Assembly (NCBI RefSeq): GCF_001570945.1
Contig: NZ_BCSQ01000043.1
Span: 1 to 32,781, forward strand
Length of the DNA stretch: 32,781 bases
Reading direction: 5' to 3'
Origin: Janibacter anophelis NBRC 107843
Lineage (GTDB): Bacteria; Actinomycetota; Actinomycetes; Actinomycetales; Dermatophilaceae
The notes below the pieces were generated by a model. It saw only the letters and a list, made by a program, of their open reading frames with translations. It did no database searches and was not told the DNA's origin. The number at the start of each line of letters is the position of its first letter. Position 1 is the first letter of the stretch. Below, piece by piece: positions 5,455-29,515 of this stretch. The position numbers and the translations under genes were made by a program.

Positions 5455-8400
5455 TCACTCCCAGGACGGGTTCGCGTTCTTCTTCGCGAGCTCCGACAGG
5501 TCGCCCGTGTCGGCGGCCGAGGGAGCGGGGGTGTCGGCAGCGGGCTGCTCGGCCTTCGCCTCCTCGGCCTGGGGCTCCTCCACCCGGGGCTGCTCCGCCT
5601 GGGGCTCGGGAGCGTCCTCGGACTGAGCAGGCTCCTCGGCGACAGGCGTCTCGGCCTGCGGTGCTTCGGTGACCTGCTCGGCCGCGGGGGCCTCGGCGAC
5701 CTGCTCGGCCTGCGGCTCGTCGACCGCGGGCTCGGGAGCCTCGGCAGCAGGAGCCTCGGCCGCGGGAGCCTCAGCAGCAGGTGCTGCAGCGGCAGCCGGA
5801 GCGGCCGCGCCCGTCTCCCACGAGGGAGCAGCGTTCTTGCGTGCCAGGTCGCTGTCGCCGGCCGGCGCCGCTGCCGGTGCGGTGGCCTGCGGGGCGGGCT
5901 CCGCCGCCGCAGGCGCCTGGGGCTCCTCGACCTGAGCCGTGGGCTCCTCGGTCACAGGGGCCTCGGTGACGTCCGGCTCGGCAGGTGCCTCGACCGCGGG
6001 TGCCTCGGCCTTCGGCTCCTCGGACGCGGGGGCCTCGGCAGCCGGGGCGGCGGCCGGAGCGCCGGTCTCCCACGAGGGAGCGGCGTTCTTGCTCGCGAGG
6101 TCGCTTCCACCGCTCGCCGCAGGGGCAGGAGCCTCAGCAGGCGCGGCGGTCTCGGCAGGGGCGGGTGCCTCACCCTTTGGCTCCTCGACCGGAGCTGTGG
6201 GCTCCTCGGCCGCGGGTGCCTCGGCCGCCGGGGCAGCGGCAGGGGTGCCGGTCTCCCAGGAGGGAGCAGCGTTCTTCTCCGCAACCGAGCCCGTCTCCCA
6301 CGAGGGGGCAGCGTTCTTGCTGGTGACCGTGTCGTCAGCGGCGGCTGCCTCGACCTTGGGCTCCGCGGCCGCGGGGGCCTCCGCCTTCGGCTCCTCGGCA
6401 GCCGGAGTCCCGGTTTCCCAGGAGGGAGCGGCGTTCTTGTCCGCGACCGAGCCGGTCTCCCAGGACGGGGCGGCGTTCTTGTCCGCAGCGGTGGCGTCGG
6501 CCTTCGGCTCCTCGGCCGCGGGGGCCTCGGCAGCCGGGGCGGCGGCCGGAGCGCCGGTCTCCCAGGAGGGAGCGGCGTTCTTCTCCGCAGCCGAGCCGGT
6601 CTCCCAGGAGGGAGCGGCGTTCTTCTCCGCAGCGGTGGCGTCGGCCTTCGGCTCCTCGGCCGCGGGGGCCTCCGCAGCCGGGGCGGCAGCCGGAGCGCCG
6701 GTCTCCCAGGAGGGAGCGGCATTCTTCTCGGCAGCCGAGCCGGTCTCCCAGGACGGGGCGGCGTTCTTGTCCGCAGCGGACGAGTCGGCGCTCGCGGCGG
6801 CAGCACCAGCGCCGGCCGCTGCAGCACCAGCGCCCACGGCAGCGCCGGTCTCCCACGAGGGAGCGGCGTTCTTGTCCGCAGCGGTCTCGCGACCGGCAAC
6901 GGCCTTCGGGTCCTCGCCGGCCTCCTCGACCGCGGCAGCGGTCTGCGCGGTCTCGGCCTCGCTCGGAGCGGCGGGGGTCGCCCCCTTCGCTCCCTCACCC
7001 TCGGTGGGCGCGGGGACGGCGGTCTTGGGCTCGGCCTCGGCCTGCTCCTGCGCCTCGGTGGTGCCGCCCTTCGCGGGGACGACCGCCTCCTTGACCGACG
7101 CGAGCAGCATCTGGGCCACGTCGACGACCTCGATGTCCTCGGACGCACCCTCGGACTGCTTGGCCGTCAGGCCGTCGCTGAGCATGACGCGGCAGAAGGG
7201 GCAGCCCACGGCGATCCGGTCGGCGCCGGTCGCGATGGCCTCCTCGGTGCGGTTGAGGTTGATCCGCGAGCCGAGCTGCTCCTCCATCCACATGCGGGCG
7301 CCACCGGCGCCGCAGCAGAAGGACTTCTCCTTGGTCCGCTCCATCTCCTTGAGCTCGACACCCGGCAGGGCCGAGATGAGCTCACGCGGCGGGGCGTAGA
7401 CGTTGTTGTGACGACCCAGGTAGCACGGGTCGTGGTAGGTCACCGACGGCGCGGACGACGCGACGTCCTTCAGGCTCGACTTGCGCGGGCCCTCGGGGCG
7501 GTTGACCGGGACGATCTTCTTCTCGCGGACGAGGCGGTTGAGCAGCTGCGTGTGGTGCAGCACCTCGTACTTGCCGCCGAGCTGCGGGTACTCGTTCTTG
7601 ATCGTGTTGAAGCAGTGCGCGCACGTGACGACGATCTTCGTCGCGCCGAGCTCGTTGAGCGTCTCGACGTTCTGCTCCGCCAGCATCTGGAAGAGCACCT
7701 CGTTGCCCGCGCGGCGAGCGGAGTCACCGGTGCAGGTCTCGCCGTTGCCGAGGACCGCGAAGTCCACGCCGGCGTGGTCGAAGAGCTCGGCGACCGCGCG
7801 CGTCGTCTTCTTGGCGCGGTCCTCGTAGGCGCCGGCGCAGCCGACCCAGAAGAGGTAGTCGACCTCGTCCGCGGACTCGGCGTCCTCACCGAGCACCTTG
7901 ACGGTGAAGGGGAGGTCCTTCGCCCAGTCCATGCGCGCCTTGGCACCCATGCCCCACGGGTTGCCCTTGGACTCGAGCTTCTTGAACAGGCCGCCGAGCT
8001 CGCTCGGGAAGGCCGACTCGATGAGGTTCTGGTAGCGGCGCATGTCGACGATGTGGTCGACGTGCTCGATGTCGACGGGGCACTGCTCGACGCAGGCGCC
8101 ACAGGTGGTGCAGGACCACAGGACGTCCTCGTCGATGACGGCGTCCGGGCCGTGCGGGTTGTAGGCCGACAGCGGGTGGTCGACGTCGTAGCCGGTCTGG
8201 CCGACGAGCGACATCTCGGCCCAGTTGATGGCGTCGGGCTCCGCGGTGGCGACGGCGCCCTCCGCCTCGCCCCCCTTCGTCCCGGGTGCGCCGGCCAGCG
8301 CGACGGCACCGCTGGCGGTCTGGCCCTTGGCCCCACCCGGCGAGGCGATGACGCCCGAGACGCCGTTGGCGGCGGCCAGGTACGGCGCCTTGGAGTGCGC

Positions 8401-9438
8401 GTGGTCGCGCAGCGTCATCATGAGCAGCTTGGGGGAGAGGGGCTTCTCGGTGTTCCACGCGGGGCACTGGCTCTGGCAGCGACCGCACTCGGTGCAGGTG
8501 GAGAAGTCGAGCAGGCCCTTCCACGTGAAGTCCTCGACCTTGCCGACGCCGAGGGTGGTCTCCTCCTCCATCTCCTCCATGACCTCCATGGAGAACGGCT
8601 TGCCGTCGACGAGCATCGGCTGCAGCTCACCGAGCGACGTGCGGCCGTCGGCGTGGCGCTTGAAGTAGATGTTGAAGAACGCGAGGAACCGGTGCCACGC
8701 GACACCCATCGTCGGGTTGAGCGAGACGGTGATCATCCACGCGTACGAGATGACGAGCTTGATGAGCGCGATCGCGATGATCGCCGCCTCGAGCGTCCCC
8801 TCGGACAGGCCGGTGAAGAGCTCGCCGAGCGCGCCCGTCAGCGGGAAGTGCAGGAAGGACCCGTGGTCGTCGCCGGCGCCCTTGAGCAGCGCGTACTCGA
8901 GACCGCGCAGCAGCGTGATGCACAGGCCGACGCCGAAGATCGTGAACTCGACGTAGTAGGCCTGCCAGAAGGTCGACCCGTAGAAGCGGGACTTGCGGCC
9001 CTCCTCGCCGATCGCGGAGCGCGGGTGGTTCTTCTGCCGGATGAGCATCAGGGCGATGATGCCGACGAAGCCGGTCACCGCGAGCAGCTCGACGAGCCAC
9101 TCGTAGGGCAGGAAGCTGCCGATGAGCGGCAGGTGGAAGTGCGGGTCGAAGAGCTGGACCGTCGCCTGCACCAGGGTGCCGAAGAGGACACCGAAGGAGA
9201 TCATCACGAACCAGTGGGCGATCGCCACGATCGGCAACCTGGCCATGCGGGTGTGCCCCAAGAACTCGCGGAACAGCGTCGCCAGGCGCGCGCCCGGCGA
9301 GTTGGTCCGCTCGCCCTGGGTGGGCTTGCCGAGCTTGAAGACGGTCAGGAAGTGCTTGACGGCGCGGGCGAGCAGGCCCCATCCGACGATGGTGATCCCG
9401 ACCCCGATGACGATCGCGACGATCTGGAGGGCAGACAT
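5455..9438 (-). CDS. membrane-bound iron-sulfur reductase (HdrD/GlpC-like, Rv0338c type) with repetitive tail
   Basis: 1327 residues. Residues 1-240 carry about five membrane spans (near 5-25, 68-95, 113-133, 160-180, 217-240). Two 4Fe-4S motifs follow: CTECGRCQSQC at 315-325 and CTTCGACVEQC at 443-453, separated by a Gly/Ala-rich insert at 355-400. Two CCG domains follow (Cys 534, 606, 609; then 672, 708, 709, 746, 749), as in heterodisulfide reductase subunit D. It probably moves electrons between a membrane quinone/heme pool and a cytoplasmic donor; the partner is unknown. The conserved part ends near 785. The remaining roughly 540 residues are Pro/Ala/Glu-rich and hold eleven exact copies of KNAAPSWETG plus a terminal KNANPSWE. 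ATG 9438 lies 6 bases after a TAGACT -10 box, so the mRNA may be leaderless. A long open frame on the opposite strand is an artefact of base composition. Confidence 0.9.
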   Translation of the reverse strand: MSALQIVAIVIGVGITIVGWGLLARAVKHFLTVFKLGKPTQGERTNSPGARLATLFREFLGHTRMARLPIVAIAHWFVMISFGVLFGTLVQATVQLFDPHFHLPLIGSFLPYEWLVELLAVTGFVGIIALMLIRQKNHPRSAIGEEGRKSRFYGSTFWQAYYVEFTIFGVGLCITLLRGLEYALLKGAGDDHGSFLHFPLTGALGELFTGLSEGTLEAAIIAIALIKLVISYAWMITVSLNPTMGVAWHRFLAFFNIYFKRHADGRTSLGELQPMLVDGKPFSMEVMEEMEEETTLGVGKVEDFTWKGLLDFSTCTECGRCQSQCPAWNTEKPLSPKLLMMTLRDHAHSKAPYLAAANGVSGVIASPGGAKGQTASGAVALAGAPGTKGGEAEGAVATAEPDAINWAEMSLVGQTGYDVDHPLSAYNPHGPDAVIDEDVLWSCTTCGACVEQCPVDIEHVDHIVDMRRYQNLIESAFPSELGGLFKKLESKGNPWGMGAKARMDWAKDLPFTVKVLGEDAESADEVDYLFWVGCAGAYEDRAKKTTRAVAELFDHAGVDFAVLGNGETCTGDSARRAGNEVLFQMLAEQNVETLNELGATKIVVTCAHCFNTIKNEYPQLGGKYEVLHHTQLLNRLVREKKIVPVNRPEGPRKSSLKDVASSAPSVTYHDPCYLGRHNNVYAPPRELISALPGVELKEMERTKEKSFCCGAGGARMWMEEQLGSRINLNRTEEAIATGADRIAVGCPFCRVMLSDGLTAKQSEGASEDIEVVDVAQMLLASVKEAVVPAKGGTTEAQEQAEAEPKTAVPAPTEGEGAKGATPAAPSEAETAQTAAAVEEAGEDPKAVAGRETAADKNAAPSWETGAAVGAGAAAAGAGAAAASADSSAADKNAAPSWETGSAAEKNAAPSWETGAPAAAPAAEAPAAEEPKADATAAEKNAAPSWETGSAAEKNAAPSWETGAPAAAPAAEAPAAEEPKADATAADKNAAPSWETGSVADKNAAPSWETGTPAAEEPKAEAPAAAEPKVEAAAADDTVTSKNAAPSWETGSVAEKNAAPSWETGTPAAAPAAEAPAAEEPTAPVEEPKGEAPAPAETAAPAEAPAPAASGGSDLASKNAAPSWETGAPAAAPAAEAPASEEPKAEAPAVEAPAEPDVTEAPVTEEPTAQVEEPQAPAAAEPAPQATAPAAAPAGDSDLARKNAAPSWETGAAAPAAAAAPAAEAPAAEAPAAEAPEPAVDEPQAEQVAEAPAAEQVTEAPQAETPVAEEPAQSEDAPEPQAEQPRVEEPQAEEAKAEQPAADTPAPSAADTGDLSELAKKNANPSWE
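5458..6885 (-). repeat. eleven-copy KNAAPSWETG repeat region inside the Fe-S reductase gene
   Basis: The DNA unit is about 27 bases (plus-strand form begins GTCTCCCA and ends GCGTTCTT). Units start near 5813, 6064, 6251, 6292, 6411, 6451, 6558, 6598, 6702, 6742 and 6849, with a diverged copy at the very end of the gene (5458). Several occur as doublets about 40 bases apart inside a larger unit of about 145 bases (around 6411-6750), which points to recent tandem duplication. Reading frame is kept throughout. Confidence 0.9.
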
Positions 9439-11862: not shown

Positions 11863-11949
11863 GGAGGGCTCGCATAGTGGCCTAGTGCGGCGGTCTTGAA
11901 AACCGCTATGGCGGCAACGTCATCGTGGGTTCGAATCCCACGCCCTCCG
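11863..11949 (+). tRNA. tRNA-Ser (anticodon UGA)
   Basis: 87 bases. The acceptor stem GGAGGGC pairs with GCCCTCC (11942-11948), with discriminator G. The anticodon loop CTTGAAA sits in the GCGGT/ACCGC stem and gives anticodon TGA. A long class II variable arm and a T-arm GTGGG-TTCGAAT-CCCAC are present. CCA is not encoded. The accessory region begins just downstream. Confidence 0.95.
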
Positions 11950-11987
11950 CCGAGGGCGATTAGCGATTCCATCGCGTCGCCGTTCGC

Positions 11988-12021
11988 AAAAGCCCGCCCA
12001 GAGACCTCTGGGGCGGGATTT
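11988..12021 (+). terminator. terminator of tRNA-Ser(UGA)
   Basis: CCCGCCCAGAG pairs with CTCTGGGGCGGG with one bulged base, flanked by AAAAG on the left and ATTT on the right, 39 bases after the tRNA. Confidence 0.7.
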
Positions 12022-12081
12022 CGTGCTTCAGATGGGTGTCGCGCAGTTCCTGGTCCGTGACGGCAGCGGGCGGGCACACGA

Positions 12082-12128
12082 CACGAGCCAGCCCCGACAC
12101 GCGTGACGCGTGTCGGGGCTGGCTCGTG
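12082..12128. terminator. perfect 22-bp palindromic hairpin at the left edge of the recombinase/transposase module
   Basis: Arms 12082-12103 and 12107-12128 are perfect complements around the 3-base loop TGA. It lies 92 bases past the transposase stop, so a terminator is the simple reading. The exact symmetry and its place between the tRNA and a transposase also allow an element end or recombinase site. Confidence 0.6.
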
Positions 12129-12219
12129 GGTAGCACTCATGGCCCGCTGGCCTGAGGCCGCGGGCTATCGCCGGGTCGAGCTGGGGGTATTCAGTTCAAC
12201 AAGCGGACCGAGTGGACGC

Positions 12220-13797
12220 TTAGGTCCGTGCTGGCGGCTCGCGGCGCTCGACGTGCTCGAGAACCTCACCCGTGTCGGGGTCAACGAGCAGTTCGTCGTC
12301 GACCTTGATGGCCTCCGGACCTTCGGGCAGGTGGTGCCCGTTCGCAGCCCGCACGCGCAGGTTGTGCATCGCGAACAGCAGCATCGTCATCAGGCTGGTC
12401 TTGACCAGACCGAGGACGTGAATCCATCCCTTGACCAGACCTCCGCGGTTCTTGACCGTCCCGAACGCGCCCTCGATGCGGGTGCGGGCAGCGTAGGTGG
12501 AGCGCCACTCGGCCGTTCCCCACGCGTGGGGCTGGCGGTGCTTCTCGTTCTCGTTCCACGCGATGAGGATGGTCTGCTGCGCGCACGCCGGCCGTTCTTT
12601 GCGCAGTTGCGCGGGTGGCATCAGAGGTGGGTCAACGATGGTCGGCGCGTCCTCGGCCGCGGGGACCGCCAGGGGGCAGCCCTCGCACAAGACCTTGCCG
12701 ACCTTCGCGGGGCAGGACCACCGCTCACCGTTGGCGGTCTTGCCGTGACGCTCGAACGCGTACTTTTCGCGCTCGGCCACATCGGCGTCGAACTGCGCCA
12801 CCTGCTGCGCGCGCTCCGCGTGCGCTTCCTGTTCCTTCTTCGTGGGGTTGGCCGTCAGGGGCGCCTGGGACAGGTTCGTCGGACGCGTCAACTTCCGCAG
12901 CCGTGTCGGCATCCGGTGGCAGTGCGGGGTGCCGTCAACGATGTCGTACCCGCGACCGGAGGTGACGAACCGCTTGTCGAGGGGGTGCATGTCCTGGATG
13001 TTCGCGATGCCCAGCAGCCGCAGCGGAGTCGCCCACGACTGCTCCTTCGCGTACGTGAACCCCCGGTCCGCCAGGACCGCGTCGATGCCAGACATCCCGG
13101 CACGCTCTCGCGCGTTCACCGTGTCCGTCAGCAGCGCCACCCCCGCGGGCGCCGGCGAGGCGTTCGCGGCGCGCAACCGGATGCGCTCGAAGATGTTCGC
13201 TCCGCAGCTCTGACCCAGGGCGGTGACGTGGTACCCGTACAGCTTGTCGGTGTCCGCGACAGCGGTCGGGGTGCGGTGCCCGTGGCGGGCGTCGGTGTCG
13301 ATGCGACGGCCCCGGTCGCGGTACTGCCGCGCGTCCTTGTCGGACTTGATGGCGCGGCGCCGGCCCCAGGTCTCTACGGCGGTGTCGTCCATGACGACGC
13401 GCGTGTCACGGGGCATCCCTGCCAGCGTCACGTCCAGCAGCGCATCGCTGAGGTCGTCGAGGAGCTTCTGCGACAGCTTGCAGTGCTGCTCGTTGTTCGG
13501 GTCGGTCGGCGCCAACGCCTTGTTGACCTGCGACCACAGGTAGTAGACGTTGTGCGGCTCGACGGGGCCGGTCAGCCCAAGCGCAGTGCGCTGGGAACGG
13601 GGCAGGTCGTTCAGCAGGGGCGCGACCTCCCGCAGGCGGACCTTCCCGTGCCTCGACAGCGACACCGCGATGCCGACCAGCAACGCCAGGACGGTCAGCT
13701 GACGGGGGCGACCGACCTGCTTGGCCATCTCCGTCTCGATGCGGGTGGCGATGCCAGAAGTCCCGATGGCGCGGGTGATGAGGGGGACGCTGTTCAT
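12220..13797 (-). CDS. IS4-type DDE transposase, coupled to an upstream recombinase-like gene
   Basis: 525 residues with a complete DDE arrangement: Asp in VVMDDTAVETWG (137/138), Asp244 in VLADRGFTYAKE, and Glu442 within Y435-x2-R438-x3-E442-x6-K449, exactly the YREK signature of IS4-group transposases. A Cys-pair insert (about 360-375, SCPAKVGKVLCEGC) lies before the last catalytic block, as in IS1182-like proteins. The N-terminal 130 residues are helical. It overlaps the preceding gene by ATGA (13794-13797), so its translation probably depends on that gene, which is unusual for an insertion sequence. I could not find terminal inverted repeats next to it. The gene appears intact. The long plus-strand open frame over it is a shadow. 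Confidence 0.85.
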   Translation of the reverse strand: MNSVPLITRAIGTSGIATRIETEMAKQVGRPRQLTVLALLVGIAVSLSRHGKVRLREVAPLLNDLPRSQRTALGLTGPVEPHNVYYLWSQVNKALAPTDPNNEQHCKLSQKLLDDLSDALLDVTLAGMPRDTRVVMDDTAVETWGRRRAIKSDKDARQYRDRGRRIDTDARHGHRTPTAVADTDKLYGYHVTALGQSCGANIFERIRLRAANASPAPAGVALLTDTVNARERAGMSGIDAVLADRGFTYAKEQSWATPLRLLGIANIQDMHPLDKRFVTSGRGYDIVDGTPHCHRMPTRLRKLTRPTNLSQAPLTANPTKKEQEAHAERAQQVAQFDADVAEREKYAFERHGKTANGERWSCPAKVGKVLCEGCPLAVPAAEDAPTIVDPPLMPPAQLRKERPACAQQTILIAWNENEKHRQPHAWGTAEWRSTYAARTRIEGAFGTVKNRGGLVKGWIHVLGLVKTSLMTMLLFAMHNLRVRAANGHHLPEGPEAIKVDDELLVDPDTGEVLEHVERREPPART

Positions 13798-15503
13798 CGA
13801 GCCACCTCCTGCTTCACCAGCGCGAGGGTCTCGGCACTCGTGGCCTCCCGCGCCGGGGAGTACTGCGCCAGCTCCGTCAGTGAGCGCGCCGACGCGAGGC
13901 CAGCGACATCCAGCAGCACCGTCAACGGGATGGGCGCGTGGATGGCCGCGAACAGCCAGGTCGCCCGCAGGCGCCCCTGGTTGATGACCATCTCCCCGGT
14001 CGTGGTCTCCAAACGCCGCAGCGTTGTCCGCAAAACCTGCTTACGACCCTCCAGCCCGTTGAGCACCAGGGCGTCAGCGCCAAGGACCTCGTCGTGCAGA
14101 GCCATCGCGGCACGCACCGCCGGCGCGAACTCGCTCATCACGGGCACCGCGCGAGGCTTGGCGCCGGGAACGGTCACGACCAACGCCTCACCGCCGTCGA
14201 TGGTCACGGTGGTGATGTCGCTGCGGCGCAGGTGCCGGAAGTCGCCAGCGTTCAACCCCGCACCCAGGCCGAGGGCGACCAGCCACAACGCCTGACGGGA
14301 CCGCTGCACGGTCGGCTGCGCCGCGGCGACCTCCACGAGGGTGCGACACTCAGCCGGCGTGTACGGGGCGACGATGGGCTGCTTCTGCAGCGTGTCCGCG
14401 TTCGGGGCGTTGTCCGCCCGGCGCAGAACCCGACGAATGATGGAACGGTGCGTCCCTCGGGAATTCTCACTCAGGTCAGTGCGGGTGACGATGTACGCGT
14501 CAGCGACGTCGATGCGCTGCAGCTCCGAAAGCGTCACCGGCACCGACCGGTCGGCCCGGTAGGTGCTCGTGGCGAACCACAGCACGAAGCTGGTCACCGC
14601 AGACGCCACGGACTGAACGCGGCGCGCGCTCGGCGCCTGGTAGGCCGCCATCAGGTAGCACGCCAGCGGACGAACCTCATCCCACAGCGCGTCCTGGGTA
14701 GGCCGGTACTTCTCGATGGCCTCCAGAACCTCGGGAGAGTTGCCGAACTCCTCGACAGGACGCGTTAAGCCAGCACGGGCCAGCGCGGCCTTGCGGGCAC
14801 GAGCGTCCTTCGCGGCGCGAACACGCGCCGCCTTCGACATCGGCTTGGACGAACGGGCGGGGCGGTCGGCCGGAGTGGTCACGGGCGCCGCACCCTTGGT
14901 GAGGGCGGGCATGGAGGGCTCCTGAGAGGTGCGCTCGGCCAACATCGAGATGACGTCGGCACCCAGGACCGTGCTCGTGCGCTGCCAGCTGGCAGTGCCG
15001 ACCTGCCACGCCGGACCATCAACCTGGTACCCGACCACCTGGGCCAGCGCTGCGTTGAGCTCAACGAACGACACCGGGAGGCCAGCCGCGCCCGTCAGGG
15101 ACACGTCGGCCTCACGCGACAGCCGCAGGTGCGGCTGCGCCCCCGCCAGGTACCGGACCACGGGCAGCAGCTGCGAAACACCCTGCGTGCGTGCCGTCGA
15201 CGTACCTGCGGCTGCCATCCACGCGCGGACATTCCGCTCCGTGACGATCGCCGCCAACTGTGGAACCGAGCGTCGGTCCCACGCGCTCGTCCCTGCCAGG
15301 AACGCGCACAGCGCACCCAGCCTGGCCACCGCCTGCGCGTCGGTTGCTCCTGAGCCCACGACGGCGTCGATGACGGCCTGGCGTGCCCACTGCCACTGCT
15401 GCTCCGTCAGCGACTTCGGCGTGTACCGCTGAGCCCGCTGCGCGGTTGGCTGCCGCACAGGCATGGCAGGCCGCAGGGTGAAGGTGTGCAGGGTGGTGGG
15501 CAT
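13794..15503 (-). CDS. tyrosine-recombinase-like protein with substituted catalytic positions
   Basis: 569 residues, start ATG 15503 behind CGGAG. Residues about 275-365 resemble the SAM-like core-binding domain, and about 380-550 a tyrosine recombinase catalytic domain: ALGLGAGLNAGDFRHLRRSDI (split at 410-430), VTVPGAKPRAVPV (443-455), RLRATWLF (511-518) and LAQYSPA (545-551). Aligned by eye to Xer/phage integrases, the first catalytic Arg of GLRxGE is Asn418 and the His of HxLR is replaced. The His of LGHSS is also missing, while the late Arg513 and Tyr548 survive. It may be a DNA-binding, structural or unconventional recombinase. The N-terminal 270 residues, with a basic Ala/Lys/Arg helix at 220-245, match nothing I recognise. 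It is coupled to the transposase by a 4-base overlap. Confidence 0.7.
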   Translation of the reverse strand: MPTTLHTFTLRPAMPVRQPTAQRAQRYTPKSLTEQQWQWARQAVIDAVVGSGATDAQAVARLGALCAFLAGTSAWDRRSVPQLAAIVTERNVRAWMAAAGTSTARTQGVSQLLPVVRYLAGAQPHLRLSREADVSLTGAAGLPVSFVELNAALAQVVGYQVDGPAWQVGTASWQRTSTVLGADVISMLAERTSQEPSMPALTKGAAPVTTPADRPARSSKPMSKAARVRAAKDARARKAALARAGLTRPVEEFGNSPEVLEAIEKYRPTQDALWDEVRPLACYLMAAYQAPSARRVQSVASAVTSFVLWFATSTYRADRSVPVTLSELQRIDVADAYIVTRTDLSENSRGTHRSIIRRVLRRADNAPNADTLQKQPIVAPYTPAECRTLVEVAAAQPTVQRSRQALWLVALGLGAGLNAGDFRHLRRSDITTVTIDGGEALVVTVPGAKPRAVPVMSEFAPAVRAAMALHDEVLGADALVLNGLEGRKQVLRTTLRRLETTTGEMVINQGRLRATWLFAAIHAPIPLTVLLDVAGLASARSLTELAQYSPAREATSAETLALVKQEVAR

Positions 15504-15676
15504 CGAGGCTCCGAAGGGGCGTGAGAGGTCGCCACGGGTCCGCGGATGCGGACCGGGGTGGCAACACGCGCCCGGACCAGAGCCCTAGGAGGCGTTGCGG
15601 CAGCTCATCCTCCGGAGGGGAGTGGGAACTGCGGCAGTCAGCGTGCCTGCGACCGGTCGATCGGTGCGGCAACTTT

Positions 15677-15713
15677 TCGATACATTCGCCTGTTTGTCGA
15701 TACAATCAGTCTT
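15677..15713 (+). promoter_or_regulatory. leaderless promoter with TCGATACA direct repeats
   Basis: TCGATACA occurs at 15677-15684 and 15697-15704, exactly 20 bases (two helical turns) apart. The second copy overlaps a TACAAT -10 box (15701-15706) and the first covers the -35 position. The GTG start is 7 bases after the -10 box, so the transcript is probably leaderless. The layout suggests autoregulation by the encoded HTH protein. Confidence 0.55.
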
Positions 15714-16241
15714 GTGAGCGCCAAGAAGGTCGTCCCGCCGAGAGGTTTGCGAGATGCGCAGGGCCAGTGGCCTCGCAAACCCCTGCGTCCCGAGAGGGAC
15801 TACTCACGCTGGGACAACCCAGCCGCGGCACGGCTGTACATGGAGTTGGCAGGGGAGCTGACCGGACGCAGGTACGCGCTGGGGCTGAGCCTGCGGGACC
15901 TCACGGCTGCGACGGGGCGGTCCCTGTCGACGCTGACGTCACTTGAGCAGGGCTCTGCGTGGCCGTCCTGGGCGACACTCACCGACTACGCGACTGCCGT
16001 CGGAACCGACATCGTCGTCCCGGGACACGAAGGCGAGGACGTGTTGTTGGTGCTGCGCCGCTTGATGCCGCGACGCATCGGCGAGTCAGCCCGAGCAGTC
16101 GCCTGGGCCGTGGGCGTCAGCCCGACGACGCTCTACGCCCGTTTCCGTGAGGGCGGCCGACCCTCATCGCGCGTGGTCCTTGCTGTCGCCTGCGACATCG
16201 GCTGCCCCGTGCTCGTGACCGACGCGCTCCCTGCTCGCTAA
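15714..16241 (+). CDS. XRE-type helix-turn-helix regulator
   Basis: 175 residues. A Cro/XRE HTH covers about 45-105, with helices around YALGLSLRDLTAATGRS and STLTSLEQGSAWPSWATLTDYA (split), the classic LSLRxLA...S-LExG pattern. A second possible HTH lies at 125-165 (SARAVAWAVGVSPTTLYARF). It is divergent from the recombinase-like/transposase pair across a 210-base region holding direct repeats, so it probably represses the module and itself. The GTG at 15714 is 7 bases after TACAAT, suggesting a leaderless mRNA. A solitary antitoxin-like regulator is the alternative. Confidence 0.75.
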   Translation: MSAKKVVPPRGLRDAQGQWPRKPLRPERDYSRWDNPAAARLYMELAGELTGRRYALGLSLRDLTAATGRSLSTLTSLEQGSAWPSWATLTDYATAVGTDIVVPGHEGEDVLLVLRRLMPRRIGESARAVAWAVGVSPTTLYARFREGGRPSSRVVLAVACDIGCPVLVTDALPAR

Positions 16242-16260
16242 CTCGTCGCAAGACGCGAGA

Positions 16261-16296
16261 AAGCGGCCCTCGCCCGATGAGGGGCGAGGGCCGCTT
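16261..16296. terminator. bidirectional terminator between the regulator and the pilin gene
   Basis: Fifteen-base perfect stem (AAGCGGCCCTCGCCC and complement), loop GATGAG, midway between two convergent stops (16241 and 16317). Confidence 0.85.
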
Positions 16297-16316
16297 CCCG
16301 GCAGCCGGTGTGGTGC

Positions 16317-16757
16317 TTACTTGACGGTGTTGCCGCCGCCAACGAGCGAGGAGAGCTTGATGGTGGCCGTCTTGGTGTCGCGGGTGATGACGAGCTCGTC
16401 GGCGACAGCGGTGGGGGTCACCGGCGTCGCGGTAACGGCAGGGGTAGCGCCGAACTCGGTGGTCAGCACGCTCTGCACGCCAGCGGTGGTCGCGTCGTTG
16501 TCCGCGGTCAGGTACGCGATGGCGTCAGCGGAAGCGGTACCTGCGCCCATCGCGTCCCAGCTCTTCTGCTGGGCCGCTGACTCACCCTGGAGCGTCTTCG
16601 CGATCTGCGCGGCTGTGGTGTTGGCGGCGGACTGCTTGCTGTTGCCGATCACCGAGTTGTACGCGACCGCGGCGACCGCGACGAGGATGGCGATGATGAC
16701 GATCACCACGATGAGTTCGATCAAAGTGAAGCCGCGGGACTTCTTCAAACGGGTCAT
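16317..16757 (-). CDS. type IV pilin-like protein (prepilin)
   Basis: 146 residues. The short leader MTRLKKSRG ends in Gly9, followed by the N-methylation-type segment FTLIELIVVIVII with Glu5 of the mature protein (Glu14). This is the class III signal cut by prepilin peptidase PilD. After the about 25-residue hydrophobic helix comes a small Ala/Thr-rich globular domain with VTATPVTPTAVADELVI near 108-124. ATG 16757 follows GAAGGAAC. No peptidase, assembly ATPase or other pilin is nearby, so it must rely on machinery elsewhere or be a stray remnant. A role in adhesion, DNA uptake or as a phage receptor is speculative. Confidence 0.85.
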   Translation of the reverse strand: MTRLKKSRGFTLIELIVVIVIIAILVAVAAVAYNSVIGNSKQSAANTTAAQIAKTLQGESAAQQKSWDAMGAGTASADAIAYLTADNDATTAGVQSVLTTEFGATPAVTATPVTPTAVADELVITRDTKTATIKLSSLVGGGNTVK

Positions 16758-16888
16758 GAGGGTTCCTTCGAGGGCGGAGGGGGCGCCGTGGGGCCCCACG
16801 GCGTCTCCACGGAAGGTTCGGAACGCACACACCGTCAGCAACAAGGCACCGAGGCCACCTGTCACCACCAGGTGAGAACCTCCAGAAC

Positions 16889-17215
16889 ATGAGCCCAAAC
16901 CCAGCAGACGCCGCCCCAGACCCAGACGCCACGACCTGCCTGACCGCGGCCACAGGCGGGCGATGGACGGTCCACACCCGCAACGCCACCCATACCTGGG
17001 ACCTCGACGCCATGACCTACACGCGCCACCCCGGACCGAAGTCGAGCTCGTTCCCTCACGACAACACAACAGTGGCCATCACCCGCGTCGACGAGTGGCC
17101 AGAAATCGGGAAGCGGAGCGTCGTCTGGTTCGACGACCCAGACACACCTGACACCGTCGAGCAGTGGCGTGCCTCGTCCACAATCGCGACCATCACCCGA
17201 GCCGAGCCCTCCTGA
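16889..17215 (+). CDS. hypothetical protein, actinophage-like
   Basis: 108 residues, not recognised. The pattern RWTVHTRNATHTWDLDAMTY followed by TRHPGP, then WPEIGKRSVVWFDD and IATITR suggests a small all-beta domain seen in short proteins of actinobacterial phages and mobile elements; this is an impression, not a match. It has no signal peptide or membrane span. ATG 16889 is preceded by CCTCCAG and an imperfect CACCTG/CAGGTG hairpin, and no good ribosome site. It is divergent from the pilin gene. Confidence 0.5.
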   Translation: MSPNPADAAPDPDATTCLTAATGGRWTVHTRNATHTWDLDAMTYTRHPGPKSSSFPHDNTTVAITRVDEWPEIGKRSVVWFDDPDTPDTVEQWRASSTIATITRAEPS

Positions 17216-17502
17216 AACTGGACGGCGCGAGGGTTTCCTTCGAGAACGCACGTCGCCGGCCCTGTTCGTCAGGACCGGCGAAGTGGGCAGCGTCCCACCG
17301 CTGCGGACGTCACCGAAGAAGGAGAAGGCGACTGACCACCACGGTGCGAGCTTCCGCTTCCGGGTCAAGCAGCCCACGATCGACTCAGGTGAGCCACCGG
17401 ACGCGTTGGATGGGTGTGGGCCGCCGCAGCGTCACAACCGCCACATCCGGCAGTTGCAGCTACCTGCACACCATCGTTCGTGCTGGAAAACGTCCGCGAC
17501 AA
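17216..17502. other. 287-base gap with no supported gene
   Basis: Short open frames here lack ribosome sites and protein-like composition on either strand. I see no terminator or clear repeat. Possibly decayed coding sequence. Confidence 0.4.
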
Positions 17503-17937
17503 CTACTCATCGTGCGGTGCGCGGTCACGGCGAGCCGCGAGCTCGCGTCGCAGGACTCGCATCAACGGTGAGCCCTCCAACCAGGCGCGAGGTTCAACTT
17601 CGGAGAGCGCAGGCGCCCCCGTGGCCTCCAAGACTTGCTGCCCGCCGGGCCGCCCTTCGAGCAGTGCACCGATGTCCTCGAGCAGTCCCCGCAACACCGT
17701 GCCCTGATGGAAGCGTTGCTCGCCCTCGGTCAGGAAGGTGATGACGTTGGTCAGGTACTCATCGCTCATCGCCACAAGCCGGTGAGGGCGCCCGAGGACG
17801 TCAACCCACCACACGTCCTGGTCGAACACACGCATATCCAGCTTTCCGGGCCCGAACTGGCCCCACGCCGTGAACGGGCGGTCTCCTGGCAGCAGGTCAC
17901 GGTCAGCAGGGACGGGACTGGGCTCAAGCTCATCCAT
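17503..17937 (-). CDS. hypothetical protein, phage-like
   Basis: 144 residues, soluble, acidic. The core WGQFGPGKLDMRVFDQDVWWVDVLG followed (split across about 25-50) by RPHRLVAMSDEYLTNVITFL is well-ordered protein-like sequence. A Trp-rich strand pair and then a helix with MSDEYLTNVI resemble small conserved proteins of actinophages and plasmids with no known function. The C-terminal helix carries MRVLRRELAARRDR. ATG at 17937 lacks a strong ribosome site. Two tandem 19-base repeats, each containing TGCTATACC on this strand, lie 48-85 bases upstream and look like its promoter/operator. Confidence 0.6.
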   Translation of the reverse strand: MDELEPSPVPADRDLLPGDRPFTAWGQFGPGKLDMRVFDQDVWWVDVLGRPHRLVAMSDEYLTNVITFLTEGEQRFHQGTVLRGLLEDIGALLEGRPGGQQVLEATGAPALSEVEPRAWLEGSPLMRVLRRELAARRDRAPHDE

Positions 17938-17984
17938 GCCAAGTCAGGGTGCCCGAACCGTCGGACACCGCATTCCCGGGCAGC

Positions 17985-18022
17985 GGTATAGCAAGTTCGA
18001 GCAGGTATAGCAGATTCGAGCA
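17985..18022 (-). promoter_or_regulatory. tandem 19-base direct repeats, likely operator/promoter
   Basis: GGTATAGCA-N2-TTCGAGCA occurs twice head to tail (17985-18003, 18004-18022), differing only in the two central bases (AG versus GA). On the minus strand each unit holds TGCTATACC, close to an extended -10 (TGnTAT). A repressor or activator bound to two adjacent identical faces is likely. Confidence 0.5.
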
Positions 18023-18269
18023 GGCCCGCCGCTTCCACGCTATGCGGAACCGCCACCCGCCCTCGCGCGCTGGTGACGCGCACTCAATCGTCCAACGGCC
18101 CGTTGGACACACAGGACGATGACTCACGCCAGTCCACGCCGACGAAGGCACTGGGGCGGCCCCGCTGGCACGAACTCGCGCCTGCTGGGGCGCATCCCGG
18201 CGCCCGAGGGGCAGCCATCAGTAGGCTCACCCCCGAGGGCGGCGAGGCCCGGAAACGAAGGGAGTCGTT
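18023..18269. other. intergenic stretch with an odd palindrome
   Basis: Apart from the tandem repeats beside it, this gene-free stretch of 247 bases holds a 19-base perfect palindrome around one central base (GTCCAACGG-C-CCGTTGGAC, 18090-18108), a plausible regulator site. Small frames here show no protein-like pattern. Confidence 0.4.
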
Positions 18270-18539
18270 GTGGCGAAGAAGCCAACGCAGGGGATACCGC
18301 GGACGAAGGCAGAGCGGGTCGAACTGAAGCGCCGGCGTGATGCAGGCGAAGAGCCCCCGCCCCGGCCACGGCGGCAGCGACAAAAGACCGCAGCTCAACT
18401 GAGACGGCGCGAGTACCTCGACCGTCTGGCAAGCGGGGAAGCCACCATCGTCTCCCGGCCCGCGAAGACCGCGGAGTACGACAGCCCACCCGTACGCATT
18501 GTCCCCGGCGGAGCGCCCGGCAGTTCCCGCAGGCGCTGA
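18270..18539 (+). CDS. small basic hypothetical protein upstream of the R-M operon
   Basis: 89 residues, strongly basic and rich in Arg/Lys (RTKAERVELKRRRDAGEE, then RPRRQRQKTAAQLRRREYL). It is probably a disordered or helical nucleic-acid-binding protein; no family recognised. GTG at 18270 follows AAGGGAG at 5 bases, a strong ribosome site that favours a real gene. It lies 127 bases before hsdM on the same strand. Position and charge would fit a small accessory or anti-restriction regulator, but this is only inference. Confidence 0.5.
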   Translation: MAKKPTQGIPRTKAERVELKRRRDAGEEPPPRPRRQRQKTAAQLRRREYLDRLASGEATIVSRPAKTAEYDSPPVRIVPGGAPGSSRRR

Positions 18540-18583
18540 CCAGCGACCTGGCTGCGCCAACCGCACCGAGCCGGACCTTTTAC

Positions 18584-18612
18584 CACCGACGCCGTCCGGT
18601 ACGGCGTCGGTG
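18584..18612 (+). promoter_or_regulatory. 12-bp inverted repeat upstream of hsdM
   Basis: CACCGACGCCGT (18584-18595) and its perfect complement (18601-18612) with loop CCGGT, preceded by CCTTTTA and followed by a TACGGT -10-like box (18621-18626). It could terminate the small upstream gene or be an operator for the restriction operon. Confidence 0.45.
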
Positions 18613-18666
18613 CGGCTCGCTACGGTGAGCCCACCAGCAAGGGCGACAGAGACGAGGGCGGGACGC

Positions 18667-20181
18667 GTGACCATCGAGGCGGGCAAGGCCGGACAGATGA
18701 CCCAGCAACAGCTGGAAGCGACACTGTGGCGCGCCGCCAACGCCCTCCGCGGGCCCGTGGACCCCGGCGACTTCAAGGCCTACGTCTTCCCCGTCATGTT
18801 CTTCAAGTGGATCTGCGACACCCACGACTACCACCACGCCCGAGCCCTCGAGGACTGGGGCGACGACCTGACCGCAACCATCGAAGCGGACTACCAACCG
18901 TTCACCGTGCCCGCCGGCGCCACCTGGACCGATGTCCGTGAGACCGCCGTGAACGTCGGCGCCAAGCTCGCCACCAGCCTCCACCGCCTCCAGCAGGCCA
19001 ACCCCGACCTCGTCGGGGTCTTCGGCGACGTCAACTGGGGCAACAAGGACCGCCTGCCCGAGAACGCCCTCGTCGCACTCATGGATACCTTCCATGAGGT
19101 CCAGCTGGACCCCGCGCACGTCGAAGGCGACATGCTCGGCGCCGCGTACGAGTACCTCCTTCGTGAATTCGCTGAAGCGTCCGGGAAGAAGGCCGGCGAG
19201 TTCTTCACCCCCCGCCACGTCGTCCACCTGCTCGTGCGACTCCTCGACCCCCAGCCCGGTGAGTCCATCGGCGACCCCGCCTGCGGCTCCGCGGGAATGC
19301 TCGTCGAGACCGTCAACGCCGTCCGCGCCGCCGGTGGTGACCCGCGGACCCTGACCCTGTACGGGCAGGAGGTCAACCTGACGACCGCGGCCATCGCGAA
19401 GATGAACCTCTACCTCCACGGCCTCGAAGACTTCACCATCGTGCGCGGCGACACCTTCCGCGAACCCAAGCTCCTCAACGGCGCCGCGCTGCGCAAACTC
19501 GACATCACCATCGCCAACCCGCCGTTCAGCCTGCAGAACTGGGGCGCCGCGGACTGGGCGAACGACCCGTACAAGCGCGTCATCTGCGGCGTCCCGCCAG
19601 CCAAGAACGGCGACTACGCGTGGATCCAGCACATGATCGCCACGATGGGCCCCGAGCGTGGTCGGGTCGGGGTCGTGATGCCCCACGGCGTGCTGTTCCG
19701 CGGCGGCAAGGAAGGCGCCATCCGGCAGTGCCTGCTCGAGAAGGACCTCCTCGAGGCCGTCATCGGGCTGCCGCCCAACCTGTTCTACTCCACCAGCATC
19801 CCCGTGTGCCTCCTCATCTTCCGCGCGAACAAGACGCCCGAGCGGGCCGGGAAGGTCCTGTTCGTCGACGCGTCCGCGCGGTTCCAGACAGGCAAGAACC
19901 AGAACACGATGTCCGAGGCCGACGTCGAGGCCATCGACGCCGCGTACAAGCACGGCGAAGACATCGACGGCGAGGCAGGGCTCCACGTGCGGCTGGTGGA
20001 CCTGGCGGAGGTCGAGGAGAACGGGTTCGACCTGAACATCGGCAGGTACATCCAGACCGAGCAGGCCGCCGAAGTCGATGTCGAAGCCGCTCTGGCTGCG
20101 TACCGAGACGCCCGCGCGTCCCTGCGGCTGGCAGAGGTCGAGCTGGACCGGAAGCTGAAGGCGGCGGGCTTCGATGCGTGA
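18667..20181 (+). CDS. hsdM: type I restriction-modification system DNA methylase subunit
   Basis: 504-residue N6-adenine methyltransferase subunit that methylates the recognition sequence together with HsdS. The N-terminal helical domain (LEATLWRAANALRG through FFKWICD) is at about 15-60. The linker GEFFTPRHVVHLLVRLL precedes the SAM-binding motif I DPACGSAGMLV near residue 203, and the catalytic motif IV NPPF is near 284. The C-terminal helical tail (about 455-504) would contact HsdS. GTG at 18667 follows GAGGGCGGG; ATG at 18697 is an alternative ten codons later. The stop overlaps the hsdS start by 8 bases. The protein appears complete and active. Confidence 0.93.
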   Translation: MTIEAGKAGQMTQQQLEATLWRAANALRGPVDPGDFKAYVFPVMFFKWICDTHDYHHARALEDWGDDLTATIEADYQPFTVPAGATWTDVRETAVNVGAKLATSLHRLQQANPDLVGVFGDVNWGNKDRLPENALVALMDTFHEVQLDPAHVEGDMLGAAYEYLLREFAEASGKKAGEFFTPRHVVHLLVRLLDPQPGESIGDPACGSAGMLVETVNAVRAAGGDPRTLTLYGQEVNLTTAAIAKMNLYLHGLEDFTIVRGDTFREPKLLNGAALRKLDITIANPPFSLQNWGAADWANDPYKRVICGVPPAKNGDYAWIQHMIATMGPERGRVGVVMPHGVLFRGGKEGAIRQCLLEKDLLEAVIGLPPNLFYSTSIPVCLLIFRANKTPERAGKVLFVDASARFQTGKNQNTMSEADVEAIDAAYKHGEDIDGEAGLHVRLVDLAEVEENGFDLNIGRYIQTEQAAEVDVEAALAAYRDARASLRLAEVELDRKLKAAGFDA

Positions 20182-21322
20182 GGGGTGGCGCAGCACGACC
20201 CTCGGCGAAGTCTGCACCCTGACCAAGGGTGCCACTGCAACGATGAAGGCGGAGGCTGGGCCATACCCCCTCGTGGTGACTGCCGAAGCCCGGAGCAACT
20301 CGGCCGACTATCAGTTCGAGGGCGAAGCGGTGTGTGTGCCGATGGTGTCGTCAACCGGACACGGTCACGCGTCACTGAAGAGGGTTCACTACCAGGACGG
20401 CAAGTTCGCCGTTGCCAGCATCATCACGGCCTGCCAGGAGAAGCCCGGCGCGGGCCTCGACATGAAGTTCCTGTGGCTGCTGCTCGACCACCGTCGGGAT
20501 GAGCTCATCGTCCCGTTGATGAAGGGGACCGCCAACGTGTCCCTCTCTCAGAAGAATCTTGCGACGGTCCCGCTGCTGTTGCCTCCTGTCGAGGAGCAGC
20601 GACGCATTGTGGACCTCCTTGCGGCAGTGGACGCTGCTATCGAGGCCGAGGACGCTCTTCTCCGAGTGTCACGGGGCGCGCGCTCAAACTTGCTGACCGC
20701 GGTCTGCGTCGATGCTCCGGAGGTTCGCCTGGACGATGTAGCAACGGTGTCACAGGGACGAGGGCTCCCGAAGTCCGTTCAAGGCGAACAGTCGGGGGAG
20801 GTCCCTTGGTACAAGATCGCCGATATGACTGGGCCCGGGAACGAGTATGGGTACACCAACGCCCAGACGACGCTTACCGGAGAGCAGATAACTTCGCTCG
20901 GTGGACGGGTCGTGGCGGCCGGCTCGGTCGTGTTTCCCCGTGTGGGTGCAGCAGTCAAGACCGAGAAGAAGCGCCTTGTGGAGACAGAGGGGGCTGTCGA
21001 CGAGAACCACCTCGTCCTCACGCCACGCGACGGCATCGGCAGCGAGACACTTCTCGCCACGATGGAGAACGTCAGCCTGACGAGCCTCGTCCAAGGGGGA
21101 GCAGTTCCATCCCTGAACATGAAGCTCATCCGCGAAGCGCGGGTCACCTGGCCGGACCGGGCCGAGGAGGCCGAAGGCCTGATGCGGGCCAGCCGCGTTG
21201 TCTCAGCCCAAGCCCACTCAAGCTTGACCCGGCTGCGCGAGCTCCGCGCGAACCTCCTGACGGTCCTACTGTCGGGTGAGCACGAAATCCCCGACAGTTA
21301 CGACGAACTGCTGGCAGGGTGA
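20174..21322 (+). CDS. hsdS: type I restriction-modification specificity subunit
   Basis: 382 residues with two target-recognition halves. TRD1 covers about 1-140 (WRSTTLGEVCTLTKG start), followed by a conserved helix (VEEQRRIVDLLAAVDAAIEAEDALL, split at about 138-163). TRD2 covers about 180-330 (VRLDDVATVSQGRGLPKS start), and a second helix (SSLTRLRELRANLLTVLLSGE) closes the protein. Each TRD reads half of a bipartite target that cannot be predicted here. It overlaps hsdM by 8 bases and is followed 6 bases later by hsdR. Base use is slightly less GC-extreme than in hsdM/hsdR, as expected for fast-exchanging TRDs. Confidence 0.92.
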   Translation: MREGWRSTTLGEVCTLTKGATATMKAEAGPYPLVVTAEARSNSADYQFEGEAVCVPMVSSTGHGHASLKRVHYQDGKFAVASIITACQEKPGAGLDMKFLWLLLDHRRDELIVPLMKGTANVSLSQKNLATVPLLLPPVEEQRRIVDLLAAVDAAIEAEDALLRVSRGARSNLLTAVCVDAPEVRLDDVATVSQGRGLPKSVQGEQSGEVPWYKIADMTGPGNEYGYTNAQTTLTGEQITSLGGRVVAAGSVVFPRVGAAVKTEKKRLVETEGAVDENHLVLTPRDGIGSETLLATMENVSLTSLVQGGAVPSLNMKLIREARVTWPDRAEEAEGLMRASRVVSAQAHSSLTRLRELRANLLTVLLSGEHEIPDSYDELLAG

Positions 21323-21328
21323 GGTGTC

Positions 21329-24300: not shown

Positions 24301-24367
24301 GAACGGTCTCAGCCACGACGGGGACCTGTTCGACCGCGCCTACGGATACATCGAGCAGCACTACTGA
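21329..24367 (+). CDS. hsdR: type I restriction endonuclease/translocase subunit
   Basis: 1012-residue motor and nuclease that cuts unmodified DNA after ATP-driven translocation. The nuclease domain has Asp140 (RFDIVLW) and E154-x-K156 (VVGETKSS), the PD-(D/E)xK core. The SF2 helicase domain has Walker A TQGSGKT at about 297-303, DEAH near 392, a motif III-like GLTGTP and motif VI-like LGTGFDAP. A helical C-terminal region (about 720-1012) would attach to HsdM. GTG at 21329 lies 6 bases after hsdS. All key residues are present, so the system should restrict. Confidence 0.93.
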   Translation: MGKLNESTTTQAFVIDHLKAAGWHHVPGKDLGREHEDVLLEDGVIDAIERLNPGVDDHPEQAQVLLNELRALTLAAGQDGLVETNQRFTTWLRGLHTHDFRGQNRNEPVHLIDFRNPGRNTYIVSDEVTFGAGSIKSRFDIVLWVNGIPVVVGETKSSTSASISWFHAAKDIHEHYEPHHPAFFAPNILNFATEGKDLRYAGGRTPLDHWQSWDVSTAPAGEYGWDRVGRAVDTLLTPATILDFLAGFTVYETTRTPAGAPVLIKVLARYPQYEAVKLILDRVRDGSRNRGLIHHTQGSGKTLAMTFAAAQMMRDKSLKNPTVILIADRIQLVDQTYAQFRSAGMPALSTPATAEALRTLLASDKRGLIFTTVHKFRDAPVLSERDNIVVLIDEAHRTQEGGLGQSLRAALPNATFFGLTGTPIADLEKNTYDLFGHPDDPGRTLHAYTSDRSIADGMTVPIHVTARLVDFQLDQEGLDAAFAEMLDEEDLDDEQRDFITRKASRTSTFFSNPERIETVCADIVDHFYATVDPLGMKAQVVVNDRDLCVAYETELRRLLVKRATDTGTAPDEVRVVMSVQPKDDATLQPYKLTREEENALLDRFRAYGDPLKFLVVTAKLGTGFDAPIEGVLYLDKPLKLHTLFQTITRTNRNWTHPVTGQRKKNGLVVDYVGLGEGYARAMVPADPEKAKRHIDLEGLIDVFEAELPSVLDQFNGIDRTKVGYEVLQAANERMPDEAARDRFATRFGLLEGIWETAWPHPRLGPHREDYGFLAKVYQNIKPSSSNLDLLWHRLGAKTLDLVHSRIGPVTLTATTKEAVVADAGTIQTLLDDPTFAHLETEVQDKSAQQVLDSITKRLQARIDGDTGDHKVWATLAERLEALRERAIGQAENALDWLRDLLTTARDLTVAEHAEDDGGREGLDALPPLTDPNVGALTQIFQEYAPADTPVLIGRIVEQVDSIAREVCHPGWVAKDASVRDVRLALRKTLKQNGLSHDGDLFDRAYGYIEQHY

Positions 24368-24415
24368 TGACGCTGGTGGACGCGACCAGCGTGGAGAGAG
24401 AGCGGGTGAGCACCA

Positions 24416-25321: not shown

Positions 25322-25399
25322 GCCGGCAGCCCAAGACGACGCCTCCCGGGGTGTCAGTGCGTGCACCTACCGTTGTTTACCTGAGGTGAAGGAGTCAAC

Positions 25400-26152: not shown

Positions 26153-26220
26153 CCGCGTTCAGAAGGCCGACGCAGGCAGAACGTCTACCGCAAACCCGAT
26201 GTCACGGGCATCTGGCAGGG

Positions 26221-26253
26221 TCTCGTGTGACAGGTTGGCTGGTTCTCGTGTGA
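26221..26253. repeat. short direct repeats resembling an insertion-sequence end
   Basis: TCTCGTGTGA occurs twice, 23 bases apart (26221 and 26244), with similar flanks (CAGGG... and TGGT...). Multiple short direct repeats at an end are typical of IS21-like elements, but no transposase remains nearby. Confidence 0.3.
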
Positions 26254-26395
26254 TGGCCTCATCCGGCACTCCTCGAGTTCGGCTCCAGCAGCGGGCTGTA
26301 GACCTTTTGTAAACTCCCCGCCGAACTCCTGGGTCGCGGCATCGTTCACGTCGTCGCGACCCAGGACATTCTTTGTGCCTCGTCCGGGCCGCGAG

Positions 26396-26584: not shown

Positions 26585-26605
26585 GAGTGGAAGCGAGGTC
26601 TGGTC

Positions 26606-28035: not shown

Positions 28036-28098
28036 CTGATCGTCCACGACGCCGAACTCCCGGGTGCGGTTGTCGGTGGACAGGAGTTCACTGGGTGG

Positions 28099-29502: not shown

Positions 29503-29515
29503 TAGGCTGCCGGTC
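29503..29515 (+). promoter_or_regulatory. -10 box of a leaderless aroQ transcript
   Basis: TAGGCT at 29503-29508 ends 7 bases before the GTG at 29516, placing the transcription start at the start codon. No Shine-Dalgarno is present. Confidence 0.45.

Follow-up and report, generated by a model that had tools for sequence, protein, structure and literature searches.

The window analysed here, a stretch of 32,781 nucleotides from Janibacter anophelis NBRC 107843 (contig NZ_BCSQ01000043.1, positions 1 to 32,781 of the forward strand), contains two overlapping genes, int and tnp, next to a tRNA-Ser(UGA) gene. The gene int encodes a degenerate homologue of the tyrosine recombinases (YRs), and tnp encodes an IS1182-like transposase carrying a DDE triad. 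We conclude that int and tnp probably constitute the core of a family of site-specific DDE transposons in which the inactive YR selects the target. It also seems reasonably likely that this is an unnamed family spread across the Actinomycetota, chromosomal and in some cases plasmid-borne, whose single-protein DDE transposase is aimed by a former tyrosine integrase, now dead and recruited to this role independently of Tn7/TnsF, with large cargo elements homing to the 3' ends of many tRNA genes and of the tmRNA gene. The original prediction, made from the letters of the window, was of a dedicated mobile element of an unfamiliar kind; it was right in outline, as the pair is conserved and tied to tRNA-Ser(UGA), and both reading frames, their overlap and the tRNA gene are present in the sequence (Table 1).

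A conserved pair of coupled genes

Genomes are labelled G and loci L throughout. Searches with int revealed relatives in 19 of the 186 genomes of the same taxonomic family, and the int profile, at E ≤ 1e-30, identified them in the order (23 of 396 genomes) and in the class (19 of 394; the genome of origin is counted in these figures, and the sets overlap). In the phylum, 13 of 396 genomes were detected at E ≤ 1e-20. Profile scores drop from 1e-30 straight to E values of about 1e-18 and weaker, where the ordinary recombinases start. With tblastn, two plasmid records and no phage matches were obtained. The loci examined are 64 genomic ones, partly on draft contigs of which some may be plasmids, and two plasmid ones; L173 (int E 4e-19, no tnp) was excluded as an ordinary YR and would bring the number of rows to 67.

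The tnp gene is located directly downstream of int in 65 of these 66 loci (63/64 genomic, 2/2 plasmid), and a 4-bp NTGA stop-start overlap is present in 50 of the 65. The pairing is therefore not due to chance; the predicted gene order and overlap are conserved, and the possibility raised at the outset, that homologues are almost never adjacent, does not hold. Nor does tnp fit the picture of an IS1182-type lone transposase gene with its own start, given the int gene upstream and the recurring overlap. On the plasmids (L024, Streptomyces clavuligerus pSCL3, and L025, a Rhodococcus opacus plasmid), the copies of the genes are annotated only as hypothetical proteins.

Int has a recombinase fold without the active site

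By itself, the int protein of the window gave no Pfam or NCBIfam match and a single PHROG match at chance level. A profile of 19 family sequences matches XerA (E 1.5e-10) and XerD (E 3.5e-4), and the best matches of the int AlphaFold model in the PDB are XerA, XerH and Cre. An additional stretch towards the N-terminus of the protein (about residues 24-98) is covered by the N-terminal part of the profile, and the core begins at about residue 258; a second CB-like stretch is present in the window copy.

The five YR active-site residues were placed via alignment to XerA, accepting H, K or Y at the His-II position and including fragments among the 84 domain rows. None of the 84 family rows has a complete five-residue active site. 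Per column, the YR residue is found in 8/75 (Arg-I), 5/74 (His-II), 72/74 (Arg-II), 0/74 (His/Trp-III) and 16/73 (Tyr) rows, and the window int has N, G, R, L and L at these positions. As a control, we used 17 recombinase rows taken from the weaker matches of the same searches. All five residues are present in 11 of them and Arg-I in all 17; of the remaining six, four are gapped at the Tyr position and two are degenerate themselves. Int is thus a recombinase fold without a YR active site.

Several loci (L043, L044, L144, L146, L150, L151, L034, L035, L247-L249 and L025) contain either two int-like genes in tandem before tnp or one longer int gene with an extra N-terminal part. Such tandem or lengthened genes may represent a duplicated selector.

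Tnp is an IS1182-like DDE transposase

Tnp matches the DDE_Tnp_1_6 and IS1182 families, both weakly; the score against IS1182 model NF033551 is 30.3 bits, for the C-terminal part only, and lies below the cut-off of 270 bits. Residues D137, D244 and E442 are invariant in a 16-row alignment, and across the family the triad is conserved in 64/64, 64/64 and 64/65 ungapped rows (82 rows in all). The fold of tnp has no match in the PDB at E ≤ 0.001, the best ones, piggyBat and Tn5, being weak, so that the DDE reading of tnp rests on the triad. The gene had been put down as an IS4-type DDE transposase: the DDE part of that assignment stood, and IS1182-like describes the gene better than IS4-type, if far below the IS1182 cut-off.

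The pair mostly faces the 3' ends of tRNA and tmRNA genes

In 48 of the 64 genomic loci, a tRNA gene is found 108-355 bp past the tnp stop codon (all but one at 108-269 bp). All 48 tRNA genes are arranged tail to tail with tnp, their 3' end facing it. The 3' end of a tmRNA gene faces tnp in two more loci (L147 and L168), at about 113 and 244 bp, bringing the number of genomic loci with the tnp end facing the 3' end of a tRNA or tmRNA gene to 50/64. The tRNA targets seen are those for Leu, Ser, Gly, Lys, Ala, Met, Val, Pro and Glu. At roughly 50 tRNA genes per 3.5 Mb, chance would place a facing tRNA gene within 400 bp at well below 1% of loci. A small control set of 12 IS1182-family stretches (from 8 of 149 genomes, with two of the genes each contributing two stretches) contained no tRNA gene.

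Two loci, L026 and L028, are extra copies in genomes that also bear a copy at tRNA-Leu; they have the same right end and other flanks, and insertion elsewhere than at a tRNA gene is possible for them.

Ends of the elements

Pairs of ends were scored against 200 random anchors per locus, and 48 loci were tested, 2 of 50 being too short. This test replaces an earlier end scan with a loose score, which gave null maxima of 20-22 against hits of 16-23 over 15 sequences. Local palindromes are still part of the random-anchor null, and L170 may be such a case. At p ≤ 0.02, end pairs were detected in 10 of the 48 loci, where about one would be expected: G091, G656, G490, G745, G137, G055, G058, L170, L250 and L254. 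Seven of the ten fall among the 14 sequences with at least 29 kb searched (the window aside). The elements delimited in this way are 6.6-37.4 kb in size, and have terminal inverted repeats, target duplications of 4-9 bp, and spacers of 1-7 bp past the RNA gene.

The element of G058 begins 3 bp beyond tRNA-Gly, its far end follows 16,482 bp later with an 18/20 inverted repeat (GGGGTGTTGCCC...), and TCAGC flanks the element on both sides; its ends and the empty site in G063 agree within about 11 bp. For G137 (terminal inverted repeat 15/20, duplication TCCCAC), five congeners were compared: the left end lies 333 bp before synteny with G142 resumes, synteny with G143, G139 and G145 resumes later still, and G138 does not resume in the stretch. 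The 37.4-kb element of G055 has a 16/20 terminal inverted repeat and the duplication ACACGT; a second insertion beside it is possible, because synteny resumes 4.2 kb beyond its end. The corresponding values are 17/20 and GCCGA for G656, and 16/20 and the 7-bp duplication ACGTGAA for G490, while G091 and G745 have 9-bp duplications. Terminal inverted repeats together with short duplications mark the ends of DDE transposition, not of YR integration. With int lacking a YR active site and the ends that can be set being of DDE type, there is one working chemistry in the unit and not the two recombination chemistries that had been proposed.

By eye, the right ends of relatives contain two copies of a motif close to GTTCACGAAAC. 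The proposed right end of the window element has GATTAGCGATTC and GTTCGCAAAAG, which resemble these paired subterminal repeats, again by eye. The perfect inverted repeat between tnp and this end (Table 1) is possibly a terminator or a binding site. The L026-L032 group has a terminal hairpin on its right side, which was not taken as a general end signature. Replacement of inverted repeats as for IS1272 was also considered and dropped because of the duplications.

In G101, two copies are 100% identical over 2779 bp, and just one of them is located at a tRNA gene. This identity suggests recent movement.

The island in the window and its cargo

The window contains an island of 16.1 kb (11952-28056) that is missing in all nine congeners compared (nine of the 15 other genomes in the genus set). 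Synteny with these congeners extends as far as 11950 or 11951, where tRNA-Ser(UGA) ends. An empty-site comparison had been proposed at this tRNA gene; it delimits the island, and no left terminal inverted repeat was recognised.

Two candidates for the left end were rejected. The best match to a terminal inverted repeat alone, at 17706-17729, shares 20/24 positions with the tRNA-junction sequence; it lacks a duplication, lies inside the open reading frame (ORF) 17503-17937, and its score of 16 compares with a maximum of 15 in shuffled sequences. Just before 28057, CGCCGA from the sequence next to the tRNA gene is repeated, as noticed by eye; this is weak in GC-rich DNA, and the adjacent inverted repeat is unconvincing.

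Part of the cargo consists of defence systems, both in the window (Table 1) and in the G058 element, which carries a type ISP restriction enzyme; two G091 cargo proteins that were scanned gave no match. No further recombinase was recognised among the window island proteins scanned, and none of TnsA/TnsB, TnsC and TniQ/TnsD appeared in the Pfam matches of 12 window proteins (tnp, int, the XRE protein and nine other island genes).

The island also has a solitary gene for a type IV prepilin-like protein (N_methyl; 16317-16760, minus strand), adjoining the XRE gene. Elsewhere in the window (5455-9438, minus strand), a 1327-residue protein resembles Fe-S oxidoreductases by eye, and its Ala/Pro-rich C-terminal part repeats KNAAPSWETG many times.

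Table 1. Features of the int-tnp locus and island in the window
Feature	Position	Strand	Remarks
tRNA-Ser(UGA)	11863-11951	+	ARAGORN; proposed target; core synteny stops at its 3' end
Proposed right (tnp-proximal) transposon end	11952-12081		directly 3' of tRNA-Ser(UGA); placed by analogy with relatives
Perfect inverted repeat	12082-12128		23+23 bp, 1 nt between the arms; between tnp stop and right end; repeat search
tnp	12220-13797	-	IS1182-like DDE transposase; D137/D244/E442
ATGA stop-start overlap of int and tnp	13794-13797	-	translational coupling
int	13794-15503	-	catalytically degenerate YR homologue, 569 aa; proposed target selector
Two CGATACA direct repeats	15678-15704		overlap -35/-10-like promoter of XRE gene
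Divergent XRE-family regulator	15714-16241	+	
Type I restriction-modification (cargo)	18499-24367	+	HsdM 18499-20181, HsdS 20174-21322, HsdR 21329-24367
Abi_C/AbiJ-like protein (cargo)	24416-25321	+	
TIR-domain protein (cargo)	25400-26152	+	close to PDC-S66/ThsB
HTH_17 protein (cargo)	26606-27310	+	
Protein coupled to HTH_17 gene (cargo)	27307-28035	+	no family match
Distal island boundary	28056-28059		synteny back at 28057-28059 in 4/9 congeners and at 29503-29532 in 5/9; left terminal inverted repeat not recognised

The divergent regulator

The gene divergent from int was described as XRE-type with direct repeats two helical turns apart at its promoter, and we find the same: its product matches HTH_31 (E 6.3e-11), and the CGATACA repeats at 15678 and 15698 are 20 bp apart and overlap a promoter-like -35/-10 site. 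Ten divergent upstream ORFs were picked from relatives, and four of these are XRE-type helix-turn-helix proteins (HTH_31/HTH_3), one is a transposase helix-turn-helix protein and five have no match. Those of L038 and L158 are above the curated Pfam cut-off, and those of L042 and L024 are below it. At the R. opacus plasmid locus, a divergent gene is annotated as Xre. Judged from these matches, a predicted divergent regulator recurs in some relatives (4/10 ORFs scanned). Among L001-L023, whose flanking stretches are short, the XRE sequence of the window matches only its own locus, and the Leu(cag) group has, by eye, a small same-strand ORF at the position of the divergent gene.

Relation to known systems

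Tyrosine-integrase genomic islands are found at tRNA 3' ends, with the integrase near the junction, and carry cargo. The int-tnp elements are like them in their position at the tRNA 3' end, their cargo and the integrase homologue near the junction, but differ in that int is degenerate and the ends, where they can be set, are of DDE type. The nearest named transposase family by profile, though weakly so, is IS1182 with IS1272. According to the available part of PMC5678879, new IS1272 insertions target inverted repeats and produce no target duplication, whereas the int-tnp elements have cargo, a partner gene, tRNA targeting and duplications.

The closest parallel to int is TnsF, an inactivated YR that targets comM for the Tn7-like Tn6022 via TniQ (PMC10293859, available part). 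As described there, and likened to int on that description, TnsF has an XerH-like fold and tandem CB domains, and works site-specifically with a DDE-type transposon. Unlike int, it directs insertion to comM through TniQ and the Tn7 machinery and bears zinc fingers at its N-terminus (same part of PMC10293859); in the window int, a Pfam scan alone gave no match for such fingers. Int, in turn, has one IS1182-like DDE partner (65/66 loci), and the targets are tRNA and tmRNA 3' ends. In Tsy, the TnsF homologue is described in the available text as catalytically active, unlike int (PMC10293859). The Tn7-like elements and CRISPR-associated transposons (CASTs) with tRNA-targeting TnsD/TniQ are also DDE transposons with cargo that home beside tRNA genes, but their selector is TnsD/TniQ or a guide RNA inside the Tn7 machinery (PMC10293859 and PMC11406308, available parts), and insertions of CyCAST lie about 30-33 nt beyond the tRNA (PMC10293859, available part), compared with 1-7 bp for the int-tnp elements. 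Searches of open PMC papers found TnsF and the tRNA-targeting Tn7 elements; the int-tnp pair was not found in these papers. The pair would be a new transposon arrangement on a known principle, that of a dedicated target selector.

Proposed mechanism and alternatives

We propose that tnp would cut and join the element ends, while int, which is without the catalytic residues and keeps a DNA-binding recombinase fold, would bind the 3' part of the tRNA or tmRNA gene as integrases do. Int would then recruit tnp, and the tnp-proximal end would be inserted in a single orientation, a few bp beyond the RNA gene. Insertion would produce a target duplication of 4-9 bp and leave a recognisable tRNA gene. 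The element would carry cargo, because its other end is about 7-37 kb away, and in the window this cargo would include the defence set. Coupling of the two ORFs would hold the dosage of int and tnp fixed. The T-arm/acceptor end is common to tRNA and tmRNA, and would be the natural guess for the part that is recognised.

The pair and its coupling, the DDE triad, the loss of the YR site, the adjacency and orientation of RNA genes, the empty sites and, in a subset, the terminal inverted repeats and duplications are features that we compared directly, at the level of sequence. From these we infer present-day mobility, the recruitment of tnp, and the reading of the tRNA gene by int rather than by tnp. 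The grounds for casting int as the selector are its recombinase fold, the loss of its chemistry, the nearly invariable pairing with tnp and the TnsF precedent.

A different division of labour would keep the same DDE transposon and let tnp read the tRNA end, with int binding the element's own ends, regulating, or resolving intermediates. The two subterminal repeats seen by eye at the right ends (close to GTTCACGAAAC) need some binder, YR folds bind inverted-repeat DNA, and a YR serves as resolvase in some elements of the Tn3 family. A resolvase, however, needs the YR catalysis that int has lost, the canonical IS1182-family stretches without an int partner hold no tRNA (0/12, few examined), and tRNA 3' ends are a classic YR target. 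Since TnsF is moreover a direct precedent for a YR selector, as far as the available part of PMC10293859 describes it, we consider this division of labour unlikely.

The locus could also be read as an ordinary tyrosine-integrase island, in which int would be active at tRNA 3' ends and tnp a passenger; islands of that sort usually look like this, lying at a tRNA 3' end with an integrase homologue close to the junction. With the active-site residues lost (0/84 rows; NGRLL in the window) and 4-9 bp duplications beside terminal inverted repeats instead of long repeats of the tRNA end, such an island is extremely improbable, and tnp is not a passenger because it is found in 65/66 loci with its triad intact. 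The genes could instead be a domesticated or dead remnant, retained at tRNA hotspots without transposition of its own today, which is partly compatible with a selector-guided transposon. The window copy, without a recognisable left terminal inverted repeat, and the split tnp or int ORFs of several relatives (e.g., L040, L041 and L147) would suit a remnant. The identical G101 pair, with one copy not at a tRNA gene, the varied tRNA targets within the family, and the terminal inverted repeats and duplications of other members argue against it, and we regard it as very improbable.

Several results weigh against a selector-guided DDE transposon as proposed here. The int model is of moderate quality (pLDDT 69, pTM 0.42), and the Tyr at the mapped column in 16/73 rows means that some members might keep the nucleophile. 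Several loci are closely related, so that the counts are not all independent. Concerning the ends, the start of the terminal inverted repeat, the spacer and the duplication length trade off mutually. The left end was not found in G101, G534 and the window (p 0.72 for the window); G102 (15/20, ACTCGG) has a p of 0.025; and the ends of G034, G185, G380 and G894, though plausible, do not reach significance singly. The remaining loci, on short stretches that elements of this size would often overrun, gave no significant ends. Concerning the targets, 14 of the 64 genomic loci have no tRNA or tmRNA gene within 400 bp. Three of these stop at contig ends (L032, L169 and L251), and the alignment of L032 shows the start of the tRNA-Leu 3' end; L155 has no tnp and a tRNA-Leu gene 2.3 kb away; L246 and L247 have a tmRNA gene 1.6 and 4 kb from tnp, perhaps owing to later insertions in between; and eight are unexplained (L026, L028, L040, L156, L161, L162, L248 and L249). 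Neither of the two plasmid loci (L024 and L025) has a tRNA or tmRNA gene within 400 bp, which makes a second target pathway possible.

Significance

If int is indeed the selector, the reading of tRNA 3' ends would be separable from integrase chemistry and could be lent to a cut-and-paste transposase, which would have happened twice in evolution counting TnsF. It would also explain tRNA islands without a working integrase, which are easily misread as integrase islands. Finally, with the selector separate from the cutter and a natural series of tRNA specificities at hand, the family would make the reading of tRNA genes by a YR fold, and the hand-over to a DDE enzyme, amenable to testing.

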